DNA of 64,000 nt from Acidobacteriota bacterium (GTDB lineage: Bacteria > Acidobacteriota > Vicinamibacteria > Vicinamibacterales > JAFNAJ01), in contig JAHDVP010000021.1 in assembly GCA_023384575.1 (NCBI GenBank), forward strand, positions 1 to 64,000. The letters are read 5' to 3'. Below are positions 35,474 through 53,244 of the stretch, piece by piece. Numbering within the stretch: position 1 is the stretch's first letter; each line of letters begins with the position of its first letter. Both the position numbers and the translations under genes were made by a program. The notes below the pieces were generated by a model, which was not told the origin of the DNA, did not search any database, and was given only the letters and a program-made list of their open reading frames with translations.

Positions 35474-35503
35474 GGGCCGCGCGGGGCACGTTCCGCGCGG
35501 CCC
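35474..35503 (+). terminator. Hairpin terminator after gltA
   Basis: A perfect 11-bp GC stem (GGGCCGCGCGG at 35474-35484, CCGCGCGGCCC at 35493-35503) with an 8-base loop. It sits between two convergent genes, 14 bases after gltA, and reaches the last base of the otsA fusion. There is no clear T tract, so it may work in both directions or be Rho-assisted. Confidence 0.6.
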
Positions 35504-38253
35504 TACCTCGGTTGTTCCGCCGCCAGGCTCGAGGAGTAGAGGAGCGGCCGGCTCCACAGGCTGTCGAGTCCCTCGAGGATGTCCGAGGCCCAACCGAAGA
35601 CGTCACGACCGGCGACGACCCGACGCAGCACGCTCATTCGCTCGGCCTGCTCCTCGACGGGCATGTCGATGGCGCGCGCGAGCGCGGCGGCGAAGCCGTC
35701 CGTGTCGTACGGGTTGATGATCAGGGCCCGCCCCAGCTCGTGCGCAGCGCCGGCCAGTTCGCTCAGCACCAGCACTCCCGCCAGATCGTCGCGCGACGCG
35801 ACGAACTCCTTCGCCACCAGGTTCATGCCGTCGTGCAGCGAGCTGACGACGCAGAAGCGGGCCATCCGGTAGAGCGCCACGAGGCTGCGGATGGGCAACG
35901 CCCGCTTGTGGTAGAACACGGGCGGTGAACCACCCGCCACACGGTGGCGGGCGTTGATCTCCCTCACCCGCTGGTCGATCTCGGCCTCGATGGCGCTGTA
36001 ACTCTCGAGCTCCGAGCGTGAGGGCACGCCCACCTGCACGAAGGTCAGCCGCCCACGCAGGTCGGGCCGCTGCTCGAACAGGCGGTCGAGTGCGGTCAGC
36101 CGCTCGGGGATGCCCTTCGTGTAGTCGAGGCGATCGACGCCCACACCGAGAATGGGAGCGGTGAGGCCGAATTCGCCAACCAGCCGCCGGTGCTCGTCCG
36201 CGAGCCCCGGGTCGCCGCCAAGTTGCTGGATCCGGTCGTAGTCGACGCCAATCGGGACCGAGACGACGGTCGTGCGCCGCTGATGGAATCTCACGACGGT
36301 CGCGTTCTCCTCGACCTCGCAGTCGAGCTCGTCCTGAGCCGCCAGCAGGAAGTTCCGCCGGTCGCGCTCCACCTGGAACGCGAGCAGGTCGTTGGCGAGC
36401 AAACCGGCGAGCATCTCGCGCCGCCAGGGACAGATGCGCAGCCGATCCGGCGAGGGCCAGGGGATGTGCCAGAAGAGCGCCGTCCTCGCGTCCTGTCGCC
36501 GAGCGCGCAGTCGAGGGGCGACGAGCGCCAGGTGGTAGTCCTGGATGAAGACCGGCGTGGCCGGATCGGCGAGCTCGTGGTGGATGGCCTCCGCGAACTG
36601 GTCGTTCACGAGCTGGTAAGCCTCCCAGTCCGCGCTGCGAAAGGCCGGGCGCACGTCGACCACGTGACAGAGCGGCCAGAGCCCCTCGTTGGCGAACCCG
36701 CCGTAGTACCGGGCGAATGTCTCCTCGCCGATCCAGATGCGCCGCAGCGAGTAGGTCGGGCGCTCGGGAGGCACGGCCACGTGGTCGCGGGCGTCGACGA
36801 CAGCCCGATCGGCCGACCCACTGCCGTGGGCGATCCAGACCCCCCCGCGCTCGCGCATCAGCGCATCGAGGGCCACGGCCACGCCTCCGGCTGTCGGAGG
36901 ACAGTGAACCGAGCCATCGTCCTGGTACGTGTGCACGTAGGGTTCACGGTTCGACACGACGACCAGCGGCTTGCGCGTGCGGGGCCCGATTTCGCCGCTT
37001 CGCTTGAGCGCGGCGCGAAACAGCACCGGGCCCACCGCCTCGTGCAGCGCGACCAGCGTCACGGCCAGCGCCTGGACCTGCGTGCCCCAGCCGGGGAACT
37101 CCGCGGCGACCAGCGACGCGAACCCGAGCGTGATCCCGGCCTGCGAGACGAGGCCCGTCCAGTTCCTCGTGGCCCAGGCCTCCAACCCGCCCAGCCAGCG
37201 GCCGAGCCGCGTGCCCGCAACCAGCAAGCCGGCCCTCAGTACGCTGACGAACAGCGCCAGACCGCCGACCGCCATGAGCGCGACGAGGTCGACCGAAGCC
37301 CCCGCCGTGACGAAGAACACGACGAACACCGGCAACGATCCCCGCGCGATGGCCACGCGGAGCGCGTCGCCCTCGGGCCGTGCCACGTTGCTCACCACGA
37401 AACCCGCCGTCAGCCCTGCCAGGATCGGTTCGAAGCCCAGGAGTGTGCCGACCTGGCTGAGGAGCACGCAGGCCGCCAGGAGGGCCAGTGTGAGCTCTTG
37501 CCCGACCACCCGCAGGTAGATCGTGAAGCCGGCCCCGACGAGCGCGCCGAAGGCCATCGATCCGGCCATCGTCCAAGCCAGCTGCAGCAGGAGGCCGGTC
37601 TCGGCGCGGACCGCCAGGGCCCAACGGGCACCTTCCATCGAGACCGCAAAGGCGAGCACCAGGAGCAGGTCGGCCACGACCGTCGTGACGAGCACCAGCT
37701 CGCTGAGCGGTCCCCGCGCGCGGCTGTCGGCGATGACCGCGATGCTCACGATCGGCGAGAAGCTCACGGTCACGGCGGCGACCACCGCCGCAGCGGACAG
37801 TCGCAGCCCACCGGTGGCCTCTGGCAGCAGCGGCAACCACGGCCAGACGAGCCAGAACGTGGCGAGCAGTCCGACGAACACGACGCCGACCGTCGAGACG
37901 CTCATCCACAGCATCCCGGCCGCCTTCCGCCGCAGGCGATCCACGTTCAATTCGAGGCCGGCGATGAAGGCGATGAGCGCGATGGCGATGCCGCTGAGCA
38001 ACAGAAGATCACGGGCCATCGGGCGCGTGATGAGGTTGGCCACGCTCGGCCCGCAGACGAGCCCGAAGAGCAGATACCCGGTCAACCGTGGCAGGCCGAC
38101 CCGTCGCGTGAGATCACCGGCCACGACGGCCGCCACGAGCGCGAAGCCCATCGCGAGCGCCGCCCCGTGGGCGTCGGGTGTCCTGCCTTCGCCCAGCGCG
38201 CGCAGCCCCACCACCGCGCCGACGACGAGGGCCAGCGCCCCAAGGCGCCTCAT
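35503..38253 (-). CDS. Fusion: CPA2-type cation/proton antiporter + trehalose-6-phosphate synthase (OtsA)
   Basis: A 916-residue single reading frame. Residues 1-413 form a complete CPA2 antiporter with about 12-13 membrane segments, a conserved membrane aspartate (Asp 195 in VVADLLLVLAF) and the family's final helix (LHEAVGPVLFRAALKRSG). After a linker of about ten residues, 428-916 form a complete GT20 OtsA. It has VSNREP (434-439), GGVAVALD, QDYHL (571-575), FWHIPWPSPDRL, VDRLDYTKG (706-714, with the Arg and Lys that hold phosphate) and DGMNLVAKEF. OtsA joins nucleotide-glucose and glucose-6-phosphate in the cytosol. The start overlaps the preceding antiporter stop (ATGA). No ATG lies near the junction, and the next in-frame Met (466) is inside OtsA. 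OtsA stands where Kef proteins carry a regulatory domain. Confidence 0.92.
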   Translation of the reverse strand: MRRLGALALVVGAVVGLRALGEGRTPDAHGAALAMGFALVAAVVAGDLTRRVGLPRLTGYLLFGLVCGPSVANLITRPMARDLLLLSGIAIALIAFIAGLELNVDRLRRKAAGMLWMSVSTVGVVFVGLLATFWLVWPWLPLLPEATGGLRLSAAAVVAAVTVSFSPIVSIAVIADSRARGPLSELVLVTTVVADLLLVLAFAVSMEGARWALAVRAETGLLLQLAWTMAGSMAFGALVGAGFTIYLRVVGQELTLALLAACVLLSQVGTLLGFEPILAGLTAGFVVSNVARPEGDALRVAIARGSLPVFVVFFVTAGASVDLVALMAVGGLALFVSVLRAGLLVAGTRLGRWLGGLEAWATRNWTGLVSQAGITLGFASLVAAEFPGWGTQVQALAVTLVALHEAVGPVLFRAALKRSGEIGPRTRKPLVVVSNREPYVHTYQDDGSVHCPPTAGGVAVALDALMRERGGVWIAHGSGSADRAVVDARDHVAVPPERPTYSLRRIWIGEETFARYYGGFANEGLWPLCHVVDVRPAFRSADWEAYQLVNDQFAEAIHHELADPATPVFIQDYHLALVAPRLRARRQDARTALFWHIPWPSPDRLRICPWRREMLAGLLANDLLAFQVERDRRNFLLAAQDELDCEVEENATVVRFHQRRTTVVSVPIGVDYDRIQQLGGDPGLADEHRRLVGEFGLTAPILGVGVDRLDYTKGIPERLTALDRLFEQRPDLRGRLTFVQVGVPSRSELESYSAIEAEIDQRVREINARHRVAGGSPPVFYHKRALPIRSLVALYRMARFCVVSSLHDGMNLVAKEFVASRDDLAGVLVLSELAGAAHELGRALIINPYDTDGFAAALARAIDMPVEEQAERMSVLRRVVAGRDVFGWASDILEGLDSLWSRPLLYSSSLAAEQPR

Positions 38254-39437
38254 GGCTCGTCTGCCCCAAGAGGCAGCAGCCAGAGCGCCAGCAGCTCGCT
38301 CAGCAGGGAGCCCAGGGCGACGACCGCCAGGACGAGTCCCCCCACTGCCGGGTCCGTCACCTGGTGCACGTTGAGCGCAAAGGCGATGCCGATGACACCT
38401 GGCGCCACCAGGAAGACACCCAGGTTGGCGGGCACATCGTGCCCGACCATGCGCGCGGCCAGCCGGCCGCCTGCAAGCTTGCCGATCAGCCGGGCGAGGA
38501 CGAACACGACGGTCAACGCCAGGACCCACCAGCTGAACGAGATCGTGGCTCCGGCGAGAATGAGCACGAGCACCACGACCGGATGCTGGATCGTCGCGAG
38601 CTGGCCCCGCAGACGTTCGTGGCCGCCGCCGGGGGCCCACGACCAGAAGAGGCCTGCCGCCATCCCCGCAAGCAGCGTCGACAGCCCCAGGTACGCCGCG
38701 CCTCCGCCGATGAGCAGCAGCATGCCGGCGACGAAGGCGATGCGTTCGGCGTCGCCTGCGCCCGCGTTGAGCAGGAGCCACGTCGCCCAGGCGACGACGA
38801 GACCGAGCCCGACGGTGGCGCCGACGAGCGCCAGGGCCATCCATGGCGTCGCGTCGCGTGTGACGCCGAGCAGCACGCCGCCCACGACGATTGGCAGCAC
38901 GTCGTCGAGGTCGGCGATCCGCGTGGCCAGTTGATGCCGCGGGGCGCGCGAGATCTCGGCGGCCCCGGCCGACGAGGCCGCAGCCGTGACGGCGAGCGCG
39001 ACGACCAGCAGCGTCACGGGAGCCGAGAGCCCATCGCCGGCCAGGGCGAACCACGCGCCGAACACGCCCGCCACGAGGGCCAGCGTCGTGGTCGTTTCTG
39101 CAGCCGACGCCAGGAACAGGCGCCGATCGATGCGGCTCCGCACGCCAAGACCAAGTCCCACGAACACGCCGAGCGCCGCGAGACCGATCGAGACGAGCGG
39201 CGAGGCGTGGGCGAGGACCGGTACCGAGAGCAGATTCAGGCCGCCCGGGCCCAGCATCATGCCGAGGGGGACGAAGACGATCGCCGGCGCGGCCGCTGGC
39301 GCGAGTCCGAGGGCCGCCCGGCTCCGGAGCAGCACGTCGAGGCGGGTCGGCGCCGGTGGAGACTCCCGGGGCAGGACCCGGGCGTCGAGCGGGTCGCGTC
39401 CTCCGACCTCTCGCGAAGGGCCGAACTCGGGCCTCAC
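38250..39437 (-). CDS. CPA2-like cation/proton antiporter
   Basis: A 395-residue membrane protein with a cytosolic N-terminal tail of about 40 residues and about ten hydrophobic segments. The paired acidic residues expected in the ion-binding helix are in IADLDDVLPIVVGGVLLG (Asp 178 and 179). The last half includes ARMVGHDVPANLGVFLVAPG. It probably exchanges sodium or potassium for protons. It begins at a GTG overlapping the treY stop (GTGA), and its own stop overlaps the start of the antiporter-OtsA fusion. The pair could form a heterodimer, since these transporters work as dimers. Ion selectivity cannot be read. Confidence 0.8.
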   Translation of the reverse strand: MRPEFGPSREVGGRDPLDARVLPRESPPAPTRLDVLLRSRAALGLAPAAAPAIVFVPLGMMLGPGGLNLLSVPVLAHASPLVSIGLAALGVFVGLGLGVRSRIDRRLFLASAAETTTTLALVAGVFGAWFALAGDGLSAPVTLLVVALAVTAAASSAGAAEISRAPRHQLATRIADLDDVLPIVVGGVLLGVTRDATPWMALALVGATVGLGLVVAWATWLLLNAGAGDAERIAFVAGMLLLIGGGAAYLGLSTLLAGMAAGLFWSWAPGGGHERLRGQLATIQHPVVVLVLILAGATISFSWWVLALTVVFVLARLIGKLAGGRLAARMVGHDVPANLGVFLVAPGVIGIAFALNVHQVTDPAVGGLVLAVVALGSLLSELLALWLLPLGADEP

Positions 39438-42421
39438 GGCGAGCCGGAGCCCCCCGCGGCGACGAGCAGAGCCACCGGGGCCACGCGGAGCGCTTCGCCG
39501 ACGAACAGCCACGACTCGTCCCGCCCCTGGGTGCGGCGCAGCCGTTCGCCGGTCAGCACGTTGACGAACTCCTGTCCGGGCAGCGCATCGGGCAGCAGCA
39601 CGCGGGAGGTCTTCCAATCGGTGCTTCGAGGCCAGCGTGCCTCGGCCCCGGCGAGCGTGGCAACGAAGCGGGGCACCACCGCGACGAGGGCCCGGGACCC
39701 GCTCACACGCGCCATCGCCACGACGTCGGCAGGGAGCGGCACATCGACCGCGAGGGGGACGTAGTCGCCAAGCAGGAACAGCTCGGGGTGGGCCCGACGC
39801 AACCGGAGACCGACGCTCGTGACGAGGAGCTTGATCCGCCCGTCCTCCCACCGTTCGGCCAGCTCGGCGACGCGCGCCGTGTCCTCGTCCGCGACCGGCT
39901 GCAGGGACGTGAGCCGATCGATCAGCGGGGCCAGTTCATCGAGCAGAGCCTGCCGGTGCGCGAAGTCGACGGGCCGCCGGTTGTCCGGGTCGACCAGCCG
40001 CAGGTCCCAGAGCTCGTTGCCCTGGTAGACGTCGGCCACGCCCGGCGACGCCATCTTCAGGACCAGTTGCGCGAGCGAGTTCACCATGCCGAGTGCGGCC
40101 ACGCGTCGCGCAAACGGCAGGAACGAGGAGAAGAAGCGGCCGCGACCGAGGTCGAGCAGGACACGGTCGACGTACCGGCTCACGGCTTCGTCGTAAGGCT
40201 GATTCGGACGGATCCAGCTCGTGTGCAGCTTGGCCTCCTTGATCGCCTTGTGCATGTACTCGCGGATGCGCTCGACGAAGGTGCCCGGCGGCGGGGCGGC
40301 GCTCGTGAAGCCGGGTGGCCAGCAGCCGACCAGCACCTGGAAGAAGCGGTATTCATCGTTGCGATCGGGCGCCCATTCATCCTCGACGCGCGCGCGGCAG
40401 TCGGCTGTGGCCCGCACCCATGTCGAGAGCGCCTTGCGCCACTCGGCCGGCAATTCGGACAGCACGTCGATTCGTGCCCGGACGTCCTCGCCGAGCTTCG
40501 TATCGTGGGTGGCGGTCGTGATCAGCTCGAACGGCCAATCGCGCAGCCTCGCCGCGTTCTGGGCATGGAACTCGTCGACCTCGCAGCCCCATCGGTCGGG
40601 CTCGCCACCGACCTCGTTGAGCGATACGAGCACGTTGTAGCGATAGAAGGCCGTATCCTCGATGCCCTTGGCCTGCACGGGTCCGGTGTACTGCTGGAAG
40701 CGCATGGCGAAGGCCCGGCGCCGCTCGAAGGTGGCTTCGTCAGTGGTGGCGAACGGGTCGCCCTGCGCGTCGTCGGGCGACGCCGCCAGCCTCGGGAGCA
40801 GGACCGCCCGCAGGAAGTCGAAGATCGACGCCTCCATCGCCGGGTTGCGCCGGCGAGCGAGATCCAGCGCGCGATCGACCACGGCGGCATCGTCGGCGGT
40901 CCAGCCGGCGTCGTTCACGTACGTCCGGTAGACCGGGAAGCACGCGACCACCTCACGCAGGACGTCGCGCAAGCTGTTCAGCGTGAAGTCGCGCGAGTGC
41001 CTGTTGCTCTCGGTCATCCGATCGAGCTCGTGCGCGAGCACGTTGAGCTCGCTCGCCATCGACGTGCTCATGATGAGCCGCTTGCTGTGGTACGCGACCT
41101 CGGGGAACGGCTGTGCCCGTCTCGTGAACTTGACGTAGGCTCGCGTCAGGAGCCTGGCGTGAGCGCGACGGACGAACAGCCCGTTGACGGCGTTGAGGTA
41201 GGTGTACCCCGTCGTGCCGTGCACCGCCCAGTCGCGTGACAGGCTCTCGCGATCGGTGAGGATCTTCTCCGCGACGACGTAGAGCGGGTGGCCGCCGTGT
41301 TCGGCCGGTCTGGCTCCCGTCGAGTCGGGCGCCAGTCCCTGGAGGTGCTGGAAGTACGTCGTCGGGTCGTAGAGGCCGTCGGCGTGGTCGATCCTGACGC
41401 CGGTCACGGCGCGCTCGCGAATCAGTTTCGCGAGCAGCGCGTGTGTCGGCCCGAACACGCTCGGATCCTCGACCCGAAGGCCGCCGAGCTCGTTCACATC
41501 GAAGAAACGGCGGTAGTTGACCTCGTGGGCCGCGGTGCGCCAGTACGCCAGCCGGTAGGCCTGGACCTCGAGCAGCTCGTGGAGCAGGTCGAAGCTCTCG
41601 GGGCGCGACGGGTCGCCGTTGGCGTGAACGATCGCGCGCTCGATGTGAGCGATGATGTCACTCGACTCGGCGGTGAGACGCTGGAGCCGCTCGCGTAGCA
41701 CCTCCTTCTCGCGCCGGCGTTCGGCAATGCGCTCGGGGTCGCGTTCGGTGTAGGCCGGCAGGTTGTGCAGACCCGTCAGGATGCTCAGGAACTCCCTCAC
41801 GTGCGGGTGGTCCTCGCCGAGCGTCGAGGTGAGACCGTCGAGGCCGTGCCGGAGAACGATGGGGGCCCGCCTGGGGTTGATCGGCAGCTCGGTCTCCCAG
41901 TAGCGGAGGACCAGTGCGCCCCCCTCGTAGGCCAGCCTGAGCTCTCCTCGCTCGAGCACGCGACCGTATTGATCGCCCAGCAGGGGAAGCAGGACCTTTC
42001 CCTGGAGATCGACCTTGACGGGATCCCAGTCGATGTCGAAGTAGTGGGCGTACGCCGAACACGATCCGTTCTCGAGGACGTCGCGCCAGTACGGGTTCGA
42101 CGCCGGGTCGACGCCCATGTGGTTGGGCACGAAGTCGACGAGGTGTCCCATGCCGGCTTCCCGCAGGCCGTCCATGAGCGCCTGGAAGTCCTCGGCCGTG
42201 CCGAGCTCCGGATTCAGCTGGTTGTGGTCGACGACGTCGTACCCGTGCCCGCTGCCTGGTCGCGCCTTGAGGAACGGCGACGAGTAGAAGGCGCCGGCAC
42301 CGAGGCGTGCGAGGTAGGGCACGAGGGTCCGCGCCGACTGGAACGTCAGCCCGCCGTAGAACTGCATGCGGTAGGTGCCCGAAGGGAAAGCGAACATGCG
42401 CTCGTCGGAGCGGGACTGCAT
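39434..42421 (-). CDS. treY: Maltooligosyltrehalose synthase
   Basis: A 995-residue GH13 enzyme that turns the reducing-end glucose of a maltodextrin into a terminal trehalose unit. The start of the barrel is TYRMQFYGGLTFQSAR, then FVPNHMGV, the catalytic aspartate in VTGVRIDHADGLYDP, the acid in YVVAEKILTDRE and, near the C-terminus, LVLKMASPGVADVYQGNELWDL. All are hallmarks of TreY. It is longer than the archaeal enzymes (about 720), as in many Gram-negative bacteria. The N-terminus could also start at the ATG nine codons later. It is followed by treZ upstream and an antiporter gene downstream. Confidence 0.95.
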   Translation of the reverse strand: MQSRSDERMFAFPSGTYRMQFYGGLTFQSARTLVPYLARLGAGAFYSSPFLKARPGSGHGYDVVDHNQLNPELGTAEDFQALMDGLREAGMGHLVDFVPNHMGVDPASNPYWRDVLENGSCSAYAHYFDIDWDPVKVDLQGKVLLPLLGDQYGRVLERGELRLAYEGGALVLRYWETELPINPRRAPIVLRHGLDGLTSTLGEDHPHVREFLSILTGLHNLPAYTERDPERIAERRREKEVLRERLQRLTAESSDIIAHIERAIVHANGDPSRPESFDLLHELLEVQAYRLAYWRTAAHEVNYRRFFDVNELGGLRVEDPSVFGPTHALLAKLIRERAVTGVRIDHADGLYDPTTYFQHLQGLAPDSTGARPAEHGGHPLYVVAEKILTDRESLSRDWAVHGTTGYTYLNAVNGLFVRRAHARLLTRAYVKFTRRAQPFPEVAYHSKRLIMSTSMASELNVLAHELDRMTESNRHSRDFTLNSLRDVLREVVACFPVYRTYVNDAGWTADDAAVVDRALDLARRRNPAMEASIFDFLRAVLLPRLAASPDDAQGDPFATTDEATFERRRAFAMRFQQYTGPVQAKGIEDTAFYRYNVLVSLNEVGGEPDRWGCEVDEFHAQNAARLRDWPFELITTATHDTKLGEDVRARIDVLSELPAEWRKALSTWVRATADCRARVEDEWAPDRNDEYRFFQVLVGCWPPGFTSAAPPPGTFVERIREYMHKAIKEAKLHTSWIRPNQPYDEAVSRYVDRVLLDLGRGRFFSSFLPFARRVAALGMVNSLAQLVLKMASPGVADVYQGNELWDLRLVDPDNRRPVDFAHRQALLDELAPLIDRLTSLQPVADEDTARVAELAERWEDGRIKLLVTSVGLRLRRAHPELFLLGDYVPLAVDVPLPADVVAMARVSGSRALVAVVPRFVATLAGAEARWPRSTDWKTSRVLLPDALPGQEFVNVLTGERLRRTQGRDESWLFVGEALRVAPVALLVAAGGSGSP

Positions 42422-42433: not shown

Positions 42434-44388
42434 TCAGCTATTGCTTCGTGGAGCGTCGGCTTCGAGGATGATGGCGCCGGGGCGACGGAAGTGCGCGACC
42501 GGTCCCGTCAGATGGGCCTCGAGGGGCGGCGGTGTCGGGTCTGGGCAGAACGTCCCATCCTCCGTCGACAGGACGAGCGCCCATGGCGGCGCTTGTGCCG
42601 GAAACCACGCCCTGGCCGCGCGAACGAGCGGGGCGCCGTCGGTACGCCCCGCACCCGTCAGGCGGATCAGCGCGAGCAGGAGAGTCCCGTCGATCCCCTG
42701 CCTCAGCACGCCCACCGCGCCCTCGTCGAGCGCCGTCGCGACGAACCGCCACGGTGCGGGCGATGCGTCGGCCGGGCCGACCCGCCACGGTCCCCGGCAC
42801 CCGGGGTGCGACCGTCGGAGAACGAGCAGGGCGCGGTACAGGCGGACGACGCCCGCATGCGGTTCGCGGTCCCGTTCTGCCCAATCGAGCCGACTTCCGG
42901 CAAATGTCTCCTCGCTCTGCGGATCCGGGATGCGCTCGCGCACATCTGGCGACGAGAAGGCCGCGAAGTGACGGAACTCGTGGCGGCGCCCCTCCGTCAC
43001 GAGCCGACCGAGCTCCGGGCCATGATCGGTGAAGAAGCGGAACGGCGAAGTGGCAGCCCACTCCTGGCCCATGAAGAGGAGCGGCGTCTGCGGCGCGACG
43101 AGCAGGAGCGCACTCGCCGCGCGCCACGTCGCGAGGTCGACCTGATGGTGCAGCCGCTCGCCGAACGCGCGGTTGCCGATTTGATCGTGGTTCTGGATGG
43201 CGACGACGAACGCCGTCGGCGGCAGCCCGGCCGGGTCGGTGCCTCGCGGCTCGTCGAGGTGCACTGACGGCTGGCCGGTGAAGAACCACCCCTGCGACAC
43301 CGTCGTGGCGAGATCGGCCGTCGTGCCCGTGAAGTCGCGGTAGTACCCCTCGGCATCGCCTGCGACGTGGCGACGGACCTGGTGATGGAAGTCGTCGGCC
43401 CAGACCGCGTCGAGTCCCCACCCGCCCGCCGCGACGGGCCGCACCATCGTCGCCAGGTTGCGGTGATCTTCGGCGATCACCTGCACGCGCCGACCCGTGA
43501 CGTGGCGCGCCACCGCTTCGCTGAGATCGGCAAGGAAATGACGTGCCGAGTCGTCGACGAGGGCGTGGGTGGCGTCGAGGCGCAGGCCGTCGAGGTGGTA
43601 TTCGTGGAGCCAGTGCAGCGCGTTCTCGATGAGGAATCGGCGTACCTCGTCGCTGCCTTCCGCGTCGAGGTTGATGCCGGCGCCCCAGGGGTTGCGGTGG
43701 ACCGGCGAGAACACGGCCGGGGAGAACGCCGCGAGATACGCCCCGTCGGGACCGAGGTGGTTGTAGACCACGTCGAGGTGGACGGCCAGGCCGCGGTGGT
43801 GCGCCTGGTCGACGAAACGGCGGAAGTCGTCGGGCGTACCGTACGCGCGCGCCGGCGCGAAAAGCGCCGCGCCGTCGTACCCCCAGTTGCGACGCCCGGG
43901 GAAGTCGGCGACCGGCATCACCTCGATGGCCGAGACGCCGAGGTCGACGAGCGCCTCGAGCCGATCGATGGCGGAGGCGAACGTGCCCTGGGGAGTGAAG
44001 GTGCCCAGGTGCAGCTCGTACAGGACGAGATCGGCCAGGTCGATCCCCGTCCACGCCGCGTCGGTCCAGGTGAACGCCTGGGGATCGACGACCTGCGACG
44101 GGCCGTGCACCCCGAGCGGCTGGAACCGCGACGCCGGGTCCGGAAACCACGGCCCCTCGTCCAGCCGATAGCGGTAGAGGGCACCGGCCCCGACGCCGGG
44201 AACGACGACCGAGAACCGCCCCGGGCCCTCTGGCGGGACGTCGAACTCCGGGCCGCCCTCACCGCTCGACTCGATTCTGAGCGTGACGCGCTCGGCCACC
44301 GTCGACCAGAGTCGGAACGTGGTGCCGTCCGCGGTGGGCCACGCACCGTACGACGGTGGCCAGCCAGGGGGCGGGGCGGTGGGCGTCG

Positions 44389-44392
<4 letters not shown>
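42434..44392 (-). CDS. treZ: Malto-oligosyltrehalose trehalohydrolase
   Basis: A 652-residue GH13 enzyme that releases trehalose from the product of TreY. It has an N-terminal beta-sandwich (residues about 15-100, beginning [15 protein letters not shown]) and [16 protein letters not shown]. The barrel signatures are [15 protein letters not shown], the nucleophile in [14 protein letters not shown], the acid in VIAEDHRN and [11 protein letters not shown]. The start codon overlaps the stop of treS-mak (ATGA). It lies next to treY, as usual. Confidence 0.96.
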
Positions 44393-47715
<3,323 letters not shown>

Positions 47716-47765
47716 GTGCGTCCTGCATGGCGGGGGGACGGCCGGCCGCACGCCCCGCGAGGCGT

Positions 47766-49798
47766 CTACTGCGGGGCCGTGTCGCGGCGAATCCTGAGCA
47801 CGTGCGCCGCGCGGAAGCCCGGGTCCATTCGCACGTAGTTCCACTCACCGCGCCAGTGGTAGCTCTCACCGCTCAGCAGATCGTCGACCCAATAGCCGGC
47901 CGGGTCGAGCCCCCAGTGTCCGATCGGCACCTGGACCCAGCCCTGCTGCATGTTGAACGGGTCGATGTTCACCGCCACCAGCAGCACGTTGGACTGGTCG
48001 TCGGTCTCCTTGCTGTAGCAGACGATCTGCGGGTTGTCGGTCTGGTGGAAGCGCAGGCTCCAGTCTCGCTGCAGCGCCGGGTTGGCGCGGCGGACCTCGT
48101 TCACGCGTGCCACGAGCGGCTTGATGTGTCCGGGCCGGTCCCAGTCCCAGGCTTTGATCTGGTACTTCTCCGAGTCCTGGTACTCCTCGGTGCCCGGGAC
48201 CGCGCGGTTCTCGCACAGCTCGAAGCCACTGTAGATGCCGTAGGTCGCTCCCAGCGTCGCGGCCAGGACGAGCCGGACCTCGAAGGCCGGTCGCCCGCCC
48301 CGCTGCAGGTAGGCGTGCAGGATGTCCGGCGTGTTCGCGAACAGGTTCGGCCGCATGTACTCGCGCACGCCCGTCTGCGTGAGCTCCGTGAAGTACTCCT
48401 CGATCTCCGGCTTCGTGTTCCGCCAGGTGAAATAGGTGTACGACTGCGAGAACCCGAGCTTGGCCAGGTGGCGCATGACCTTCGGCCGGGTGAAGGCCTC
48501 CGACAGGAAGATCACACCGGGGTGCTGCCGGCGGACCTCGGCCAGCATCCACTCCCAGAAGCGGAACGGCTTGGTGTGCGGGTTGTCGACGCGGAAGATG
48601 CGGACGCCGTGTTCGACCCAGAAGAGTACGATCTGCTTCAGCTCGTCCCAGAGCGCCGGCCACGTCTCGCACTCGAAATCGAACGGGTAGATGTCCTGGT
48701 ACTTCTTCGGCGGGTTCTCGGCGTACTTGATCGTCCCGTCCGGACGATGCCGGAACCACTCGGGGTGCTCGCTGACGTACGGGTGATCCGGCGAGCACTG
48801 GTAGGCGAGGTCGAGCGCGATCTCGAGGCCGTGCGCCCGCGCCCGTTCGACGAAGCGGTCGAAATCGTCGATCGTGCCGAGCCCGGGCTCGACGGCCATG
48901 TGCCCGCCCTCCGGCCCGCCGATGGCCCACGGACTGCCGGGATCGCCGGGGGCCGCGGTGAGCGTGTTGTTCGGGCCTTTGCGGAACGCCCGCCCGATTG
49001 GATGGATCGGTGGCAGGTAGAGCACGTCGAACCCGAGGGCCGCGATCTCGGGCAGCCGGGCAGTCGCTTCGTCGAATGTCGCGCTCCGCGTCGGATCGGC
49101 GCCCGCCGATCGCGGGAACATCTCGTACCACGCACCGTACCGGGCGCGTTCCGGCTCGACCATCACGCGGAGCACGGGCGAGTTCACGGCGGCGACGCGC
49201 TCGGCGCACCTGACCACCGCCTCGGTCAGGGGCGCCTCGAGGCCCGCCGCCACCCGCTCGTCGAGATCTCCCGGCCCTGACAGGCGGGCCGCCGCCTCCT
49301 CGAGGATCGCGCGGTCGCCGGCCTGCGGGGTCCCCTCCGCGCCGGCGCGCGTCCGCCCGGCGGCCTTGCGGCGGGGGCGAGTGCGCGCCGCCGCCCGACG
49401 CAGCAGTTCAGCCCCCTCGAGCAGCTCGCTCTCGACGTTCTGCCCGGCGCCGAACTTCTTCTCCACCTCGTGCTGCCACGACCCGAACCGGTCGACCCAC
49501 GCGACGATGTCGAACTCGAACCAGCCGACGGCCTCGACCACGAAGCGGCCCGTCCAGCGATCGTTCACGACGGGACGCATCGTGGTCTCGTGCCAGTCGC
49601 TTCGCTGCTCACCCGCGGCGTCGATCTCGCGCCACCGGAGCAGCGCGCGGATCTGGTCGTGTCCATCGGTGAAGATGTCCGCCTCGACGACGACCGGCTC
49701 CCCGGGGGTCCGCTTCACGGGGTACCGACCGCCGTCGACCTGCGGCTCGACCGACTCGATCACAACGCGCTGCGGCGACACCGGCTTTCGATGCATGC

Positions 49799-49802
<4 letters not shown>
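47766..49802 (-). CDS. glgE: Alpha-1,4-glucan:maltose-1-phosphate maltosyltransferase
   Basis: A 678-residue GH13_3 enzyme that adds maltose from maltose 1-phosphate to alpha-glucan chains. The N-terminal immunoglobulin-like domain holds [19 protein letters not shown], and the signature [12 protein letters not shown] is near residue 222. The nucleophile is in [16 protein letters not shown] and the acid in [13 protein letters not shown]. There is a low-complexity basic stretch of about 20 residues near 135-155. The GTG start overlaps the glgX stop (GTGA), and an ATG two codons later is also possible. Confidence 0.96.
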
Positions 49803-51948
<2,146 letters not shown>

Positions 51949-51952
<4 letters not shown>

Positions 51953-53244
51953 CGGCCGCTCCCCGCGGCCGCGAGATCCTCGAGGACGGCCTCGGCCGCC
52001 CGCCGACCTGCGACGAGCGCACCGTTGATCGAAGCGTTCTCGACGTGGTCGCCGCACACGTAGAGCCCGTGTCCCAGGCGCACGTCGCGCCGCCCGTCTC
52101 CCCATGCGCCAGGAGACTGATCGAACTGTGCCCAGGGAATGCGATAGGTCCGCAGCACCCGCCACGTACCGACCTCAGCGGCTCCGAACCAGCCCGACAG
52201 CTGGCGCCGCACCTCCTCTTCGAGGGCCTGATCGCTCGCGGCCGGCGCGCCGACGACCGCTGCCGACACGAGCTCCTGGCCAGCCGGCGCGTACCCGGGG
52301 GCGACGCGGCTCGGGACCGTCAGGTTCAGCACCGGACCGGTCCCCTCCCCGTCGAGCGCGAGGATCGGCCGCCGGTAAGGGGCGCGCGGCGCGGCGAAGT
52401 ACAGGCACGCGACCGATCTCGCCGTCGGGGCGGCGGGAGCTTGGGTGAGCGCGGCGGCCTGCTGCACGTTCGTGGCCACGACCACGGCGGCCGCCGTCAC
52501 CTCGTGGCCGCCATCGAGCACGACCCCCGACACCGCGTCGCCTTGGCGCCGCAGCGCGCAGACTCGGCAGCCGAGCCGCACCGCCCCGGCCGGGAGCCTC
52601 GCGGCGAGCTGCTCGGGAATGGCTTGCATGCCGCCGGCAGGCACGGTCGTGTGGCCCTCCGCCAGCATCTTGTAGACGAAATAGAACAGGCGGTTCGTCG
52701 TGCCCAGCGCCGTGTCGAGGAAGATACCGCCGAGCAGGGGTCGGAAGAAGCGGCTGACGATCCGGGGCGAAAAGCCGAGCGCGGCCAGCTCGTCGCCGAT
52801 CGAACGCTCGGGCAGCGCGAAGATCTCGTCCACCGTCATCCGCACCGCGCGCTGTCGCAGGGTCAGCACCCGCAGCTTGTCGCCAAGTGAGCCGACCGGA
52901 GCGCCTACTGCCGCCAAGGCACCAAGTGGCGAGCGCAGCGGGTCGACGATCCGGTGGAATCGGCCCTCCACGCGCACGAGCGCCCCGGGTTCGAAACGGT
53001 GCAGCCGCAGCGCTTCGAAGTCCAGCACACGACGCGCCTCAGGATAGGCCGTGAAGAAGACCTGGAACCCGCGGTCGAGGCGAAATCCCTCGACCTCGTC
53101 GGTGCGGACCCGCCCCCCGACGCCATTGCCGCTCTCGACCACCAGGACCGGGCGTCCGGCTCCGGCGAGGACTCGGGCGCACGCCAGCCCCGAGAGGCCG
53201 GCACCGACAACGACAACGGGATGGGCAGACGAGTGATGACTCAC
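51949..53244 (-). CDS. FAD-dependent amine-oxidase/phytoene-desaturase-like oxidoreductase
   Basis: A 431-residue flavoprotein. The dinucleotide-binding motif is at the N-terminus ([21 protein letters not shown] with [17 protein letters not shown] further on), and the FAD-closing motif is at the C-terminus ([29 protein letters not shown]). It belongs to the broad amine oxidase/protoporphyrinogen/phytoene group. The substrate is not evident. It is the first gene of the trehalose/glucan operon, starts at GTG and its stop overlaps the glgX start, so the two are translated together. The CarH-like regulator 6 kb away might hint at carotenoid chemistry, but that is a guess. Confidence 0.85.

Follow-up and report, generated by a model that had tools for sequence, protein, structure and literature searches.

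The window, by which the whole analysed stretch of 64,000 nucleotides is meant, belongs to an Acidobacteriota genome of the order Vicinamibacterales and carries a minus-strand run of genes in the order glgX, glgE, treS-mak, treZ, treY, UP and AP::otsA, with the fusion gene last (Table 1). Four of the junctions in the run are overlaps of 4 bases, glgE and treS share 79 bases, and a gap of 12 bases separates treZ from treY. Several routes of trehalose and glucan metabolism (TreYZ, TreS-maltokinase, GlgE and GlgX) are thereby gathered between positions 39434 and 52165, without otsB. A scan for promoters and terminators gave nothing above chance level.

Table 1. Genes, protein parts and likely transport-site residues of the fusion locus in the window.
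Feature	Position	Strand	Details and evidence
AP::OtsA fusion gene	35503..38253	minus	916 aa, ATG start, TAG stop
AP antiporter domain, residues 1-418	37000..38253	minus	13-14 helices; PF00999, AlphaFold helices, alignment A1, helix hydropathy
AP Asp195	37669-37671	minus	likely transport-site residue, predicted from alignment
AP Arg340	37234-37236	minus	likely transport-site residue, predicted from alignment
Linker, residues 419-429	36967..36999	minus	basic, SGEIGPRTRKP; alignment and AlphaFold model
OtsA (GT20) domain, residues 430-898	35560..36966	minus	catalytic motifs intact, invariant in 13 fusions; Pfam, alignment A1, Foldseek
UP	38250..39437	minus	395 aa, GTG start, LDDVLP motif; 4-base overlaps with treY and with the fusion gene; AlphaFold, Foldseek
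treY, malto-oligosyltrehalose synthase	39434..42421	minus	TIGR02401 over cut-off
treZ, malto-oligosyltrehalose trehalohydrolase	42434..44392	minus	TIGR02402 over cut-off
treS-maltokinase fusion	44389..47844	minus	TIGR02456 and TIGR02457 over cut-off
glgE, maltose-1-phosphate maltosyltransferase	47766..49802	minus	PF11896, PF21702
glgX, glycogen debranching protein	49799..52165	minus	TIGR02100 over cut-off

The last gene of the run is a single, stop-free open frame in which Pfam yields two matches only, and no KTN/RCK domain is among them. Na_H_Exchanger (PF00999) covers residues 40-388 at 73.2 bits (cut-off 26.2), and Glyco_transf_20 (PF00982) covers residues 430-896 at 361 bits (cut-off 32.5), spanning model positions 3-471 of 473, so that the GT20 domain is present nearly from end to end. 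An AlphaFold model of the full chain, built on a 13-sequence alignment, has a mean pLDDT of 79 and a pTM of 0.61 and passes from 13-14 helices through a short linker of low confidence into an OtsA fold. In this model the last membrane helix, which holds the LHEAVGPVLF segment just as an earlier sequence-only reading had placed it, runs up to residue 418, with the first strand of OtsA beginning at residue 430; the 12-13 membrane segments of that reading are refined to 13-14. The linker of about 11 residues differs in length by at most one residue among the 13 aligned copies, and GC content is nearly constant across the junction (72% and 69%). Pairwise dN/dS lies below 1 for AP, OtsA and linker alike, and both domains and the linker are under purifying selection.

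The fusion was found in 28 of the 162 genomes of the order that were searched, the window's included, and is stop-free in all of them. The carriers fall into six families (f1, f2, f6, f10, f12 and f13, where such labels are anonymous codes). All copies but one are essentially full length, the exception starting at residue 148, where its contig begins, and the other 27 are 50-63% identical to the window's copy over the matched length. Furthermore, a junction-region scan of GTDB r220 contigs from 84,980 species returned 21 loci, about 20 of them across the junction and many of them in the same genomes as the 28-genome set. No fusion was found outside the order in a sample of 396 genomes across the phylum. 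Assembly or sequencing artefact and chance are ruled out by the 28 stop-free genomes together with the separate GTDB r220 contig scan. AP::OtsA is a genuine in-frame gene fusion conserved within one Acidobacteriota order, and the uninterrupted 916-residue frame claimed by the sequence-only reading, with OtsA tethered to a membrane protein, is upheld by the frame, the Pfam domains and the 28 genomes. One genome (G053, locus L047) holds a broken remnant whose recognisable residues, in two frames, are limited to about 305-531 and 847-907. Two contigs labelled Acidimicrobiia (L073 and L077) also carry the fusion; they correspond to genomes G129 and G036 of the window's order, and the labels look wrong.

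It is conceivable that the full-length chain is not the working form and that OtsA arises by internal initiation or by cleavage of the chain. The two alternative starts named earlier, a GTG at Val433 (36955-36957) and an ATG at Met466 (36856-36858), were placed correctly, and the latter is present in 26/28 fusion copies. However, this ATG is conserved in the fusions because the same Met is conserved in free OtsA proteins too, and a start there would drop the SNR and GG substrate-binding motifs. The linker of the window's copy contains no start codon backed by a Shine-Dalgarno-like site, and across the 28 copies no junction start with a ribosome-binding site is conserved, Shine-Dalgarno-like matches being scattered. 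This junction comparison rules out an internal translation start as a conserved feature, and separate OtsA products are very unlikely overall.

The OtsA half has its catalytic motifs intact. The SNR, GG, WP, QDYHL, HIPWP, RLDYTKG and DGMNLVAKE motifs are invariant or nearly so in the alignment of 13 fusions (A1), in agreement with the earlier statement that all OtsA active-site motifs are there; the invariant columns include, by motif, what we take to be the active site of E. coli OtsA (Arg9, Gly22, Trp85, Asp130, His154, Arg262, Lys267, Asp361 and Glu369). A Foldseek comparison of the modelled fold with 5jio, the trehalose-6-phosphate synthase of Mycobacterium thermoresistibile, gave a target TM-score of 0.89. 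The TIGR02400 (OtsA equivalog) cut-off is missed, at 414.5 bits against 564.85, and the score still exceeds that of the glucosylglycerol-phosphate synthase model (288 bits). By these profiles GT20 family membership holds, and the exact equivalog name OtsA is not earned by score. The fusion is the one GT20 of the window's genome and the sole OtsA in 10 of 13 fusion genomes checked, the window's among them; it must therefore supply OtsA activity in these genomes, if such activity is used. The substrates of OtsA, UDP-glucose and glucose-6-phosphate, are cytosolic, and a predicted cytosolic C-terminus is in keeping with the basic character of the linker.

The AP half is a divergent relative of the CPA2 antiporters by sequence, with its CPA2 membership unproven, as it misses the TIGR00932 cut-off (56.9 bits against 238.3). 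Asp195 is kept in the window and in most fusions and is lost in four f10 members. The sequence-only reading had called this half a complete CPA2 ion antiporter, which does not hold for every member, as the fused half lacks the Asp in f10. KTN/RCK is missing, and AP is probably one subunit of a UP and AP pair that the reading had missed.

At 27 of the 28 loci UP immediately precedes the fusion gene, and the remaining locus is cut by a contig end. It has no Pfam match, and a profile search against PDB sequences gave no match, unlike the fold search: the AlphaFold model (pLDDT 83.6) was matched by Foldseek to NapA (E 1.2e-7) and KefC (E 2.9e-6), indicating an antiporter fold. UP is homologous to AP, with an hhalign probability of 96. 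The hhalign alignment puts the conserved Asp residues of UP and AP one column apart; their equivalence is taken instead from the fold and from the resemblance of the motif to the KefC QD site. UP and AP are thus probably a two-gene antiporter, of which the fused AP would be one subunit rather than a stand-alone Kef-type transporter. At L044:7030-9794, distant UP-like and AP-like genes are adjacent (26% and 34% identity), and other parts of the phylum yield weak matches to UP. In L042 (G028), the UP of an unfused set is split over two reading frames, through sequencing error or as a pseudogene.

Among the pairs in which the transport-site Asp was readable in both genes (8 unfused and 25 fused), all unfused pairs keep it in both (8/8). 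In the fused pairs, UP has lost it in 13/25 (f2, f6 and f13) and AP in 3/25 (f10), a fourth AP loss being found in L093, where UP is unreadable. No fused pair has lost both (0/25); these counts alone are not significant, and the losses group together in the phylogeny. In pairwise comparisons, dN/dS is higher in whichever subunit lost the Asp: it is 0.33 for AP and 0.23 for UP in the f10 pair L026/L027, and 0.26-0.38 for UP and 0.12-0.21 for AP in four main-clade pairs with an Asp-less UP. This pattern is suggestive, being what would be expected if the complex required one functional site. Adjacency, homology and complementary residue loss together hint at a putative UP-AP heteromer.

The same residue losses bear on the main rival, a plain membrane scaffold, in which the antiporter part would fix OtsA to the membrane, close to UP or further partners, without any regulation between transport and synthesis. 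In f10 the Asp of AP is lost and AP evolves under relaxed constraint (dN/dS 0.33-0.59), and OtsA stays tight. Across 13 fusions AP is also less conserved than OtsA, with a mean pairwise identity of 0.51 vs 0.66. However, AP in the main clade, which includes the window, retains Asp195 and Arg340 at a dN/dS of 0.11-0.21, tighter than an anchor requires. A scaffold without coupling is unlikely, though it deserves serious consideration.

The neighbours of the fusion across loci are trehalose and glucan enzymes or otsB. A genome of the window's own family (G003) has an identical gene order from treS through the fusion, and most other carriers have the order pdz, UP, AP::otsA, with otsB next on the same strand in about ten. 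The only otsB of the window's genome is found on a different contig (C1, L037:4590-9371), in divergent orientation to an additional pdz-UP-AP set without fusion, whose UP and AP are paralogous to those of the window at 46% and 55% identity. The pdz product, encoded before most UP-AP pairs (L037:5516-6877, L022:7696-8913 and relatives), combines a hydrophobic stretch at its N-terminus with two PDZ domains and by eye resembles HtrA without its catalytic residues. The f10 proteins in the pdz position are about 240-255 aa, and the one tested (L025) has no Pfam PDZ match. The neighbourhood of the window would also suit a membrane part that moves trehalose or the sugar phosphate made by OtsA instead of cations. 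However, both subunits resemble cation/proton antiporters (PF00999; NapA, KefC), most keep the acidic and basic helix residues, and no member of this antiporter superfamily is known to us as a sugar transporter; we give sugar transport hardly any credence.

Unfused relatives indicate how the fusion may have arisen. In L094 (G061, f15), free otsA-otsB is divergent from, and adjoins, pdz-UP-AP, and L034 (G005, f3), as far as it is visible, has free otsA-otsB divergent beside the end of pdz. This arrangement is the likely pre-fusion state, judging from gene order. In the OtsA tree, fused copies form two clades, a main clade (23) and an f10 clade (5), with the free OtsA of f8 and f14 between them. 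Two independent fusions can be read off this tree, but are not upheld, as a single clade of all fusions survives the AU test (p-AU 0.40 for OtsA and 0.25 for AP). The fusion may accordingly have arisen once or more than once. Since close free OtsA proteins lie between the fused clades, fusion is inessential to this OtsA type, which also occurs free in f3 and f15.

These relatives are relevant to a further possibility, that independent domains of neighbouring genes were joined by stop loss and kept as harmless, or as a means of equalising amounts, with no functional meaning. The adjoining sets in L094 and L034 would leave few joining steps, and OtsA of the same type exists unfused in four families. 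However, the sets are divergent in the unfused relatives, so that a rearrangement beyond stop loss is needed, and six families have kept both the fusion and the length of its linker. A meaningless fusion of neighbours is rather improbable.

The reading that we favour, with a little less than even confidence, is a two-subunit cation/proton antiporter, UP and AP::OtsA, with an attached trehalose-6-phosphate synthase, in which exchange and synthesis come under shared control. The product would be one membrane protein, a CPA2-like AP subunit with a complete trehalose-6-phosphate synthase as its cytosolic C-terminus, and AP would pair with UP, made from the overlapping upstream gene. After osmotic upshift or drying, accumulated K+ (or Na+) would be exported in exchange for H+, and the attached OtsA would meanwhile make trehalose-6-phosphate from its two substrates. 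OtsB would then free trehalose, and a compatible solute would thereby take the place of the ions. Either the transporter's conformation or the local cation concentration or pH may gate OtsA, or OtsA may gate transport. The sequence-only reading had suggested that OtsA could sense the transporter or be sensed by it. In E. coli, potassium glutamate accumulates first after salt shock and trehalose then takes its place (Dinnbier 1988, as cited in PMC5066198); an OtsA-bearing cation/H+ antiporter would be well suited to the latter step. We infer the transported cation, transport itself, the heteromer, OtsA activity and coupling alike. Against the coupling model, the fused half in f10 lacks the Asp, so that coupling there would run via UP, and the window's operon is without otsB, which is located elsewhere in the genome. 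A more specific version, a heteromeric antiporter with a built-in osmolyte synthase whose working transport site has shifted between subunits by lineage, is tentative and may well be wrong.

By analogy, the nearest precedent found for an antiporter with a cytosolic enzyme is KefC, which works with the enzyme subunit KefF, encoded by an overlapping gene (PMC10224563). However, KefF is a protein of its own, a quinone oxidoreductase that binds the KTN domain, whereas the enzyme here is covalently attached and would make an osmolyte precursor. The CPA2 antiporters NapA and KefC share PF00999 with AP, the fold match with UP, and the helix Asp and Arg; the present system differs in its two diverged adjacent genes, in the lack of KTN/RCK and in its C-terminal anabolic enzyme. 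In other systems OtsA stands alone or is joined to OtsB, and the rest of the phylum has open frames of about 750 aa, a length that fits an OtsA-OtsB fusion. Such fusions likewise place GT20 in the service of trehalose synthesis, but there GT20 is joined to the enzyme of the following pathway step, whereas here the partner is an antiporter subunit and OtsB is separate. Free GT20 enzymes (5jio, and 1gz5 of E. coli) share the whole domain, all catalytic motifs and the fold with the fusion, which adds about 418 antiporter residues at the N-terminus. No account of an antiporter-OtsA fusion was found in the open-access literature searched, in line with the earlier remark that none was known to that reader. 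What is new is the architecture; each of the two domains falls into a known family.

Replacement of K+ by trehalose in E. coli has been treated as separate steps of transport and synthesis linked by regulation. With an antiporter subunit and a trehalose-6-phosphate synthase in one chain, a direct physical link would become testable with one purified complex. The fusion also points to a two-gene antiporter family of which one member, UP, has no Pfam model, and it marks fusions of transporters with enzymes of compatible-solute synthesis as a class worth looking for. Ultimately, its conservation in 28 genomes of six families suggests that ion exchange and sugar synthesis may be physically coupled in these bacteria.
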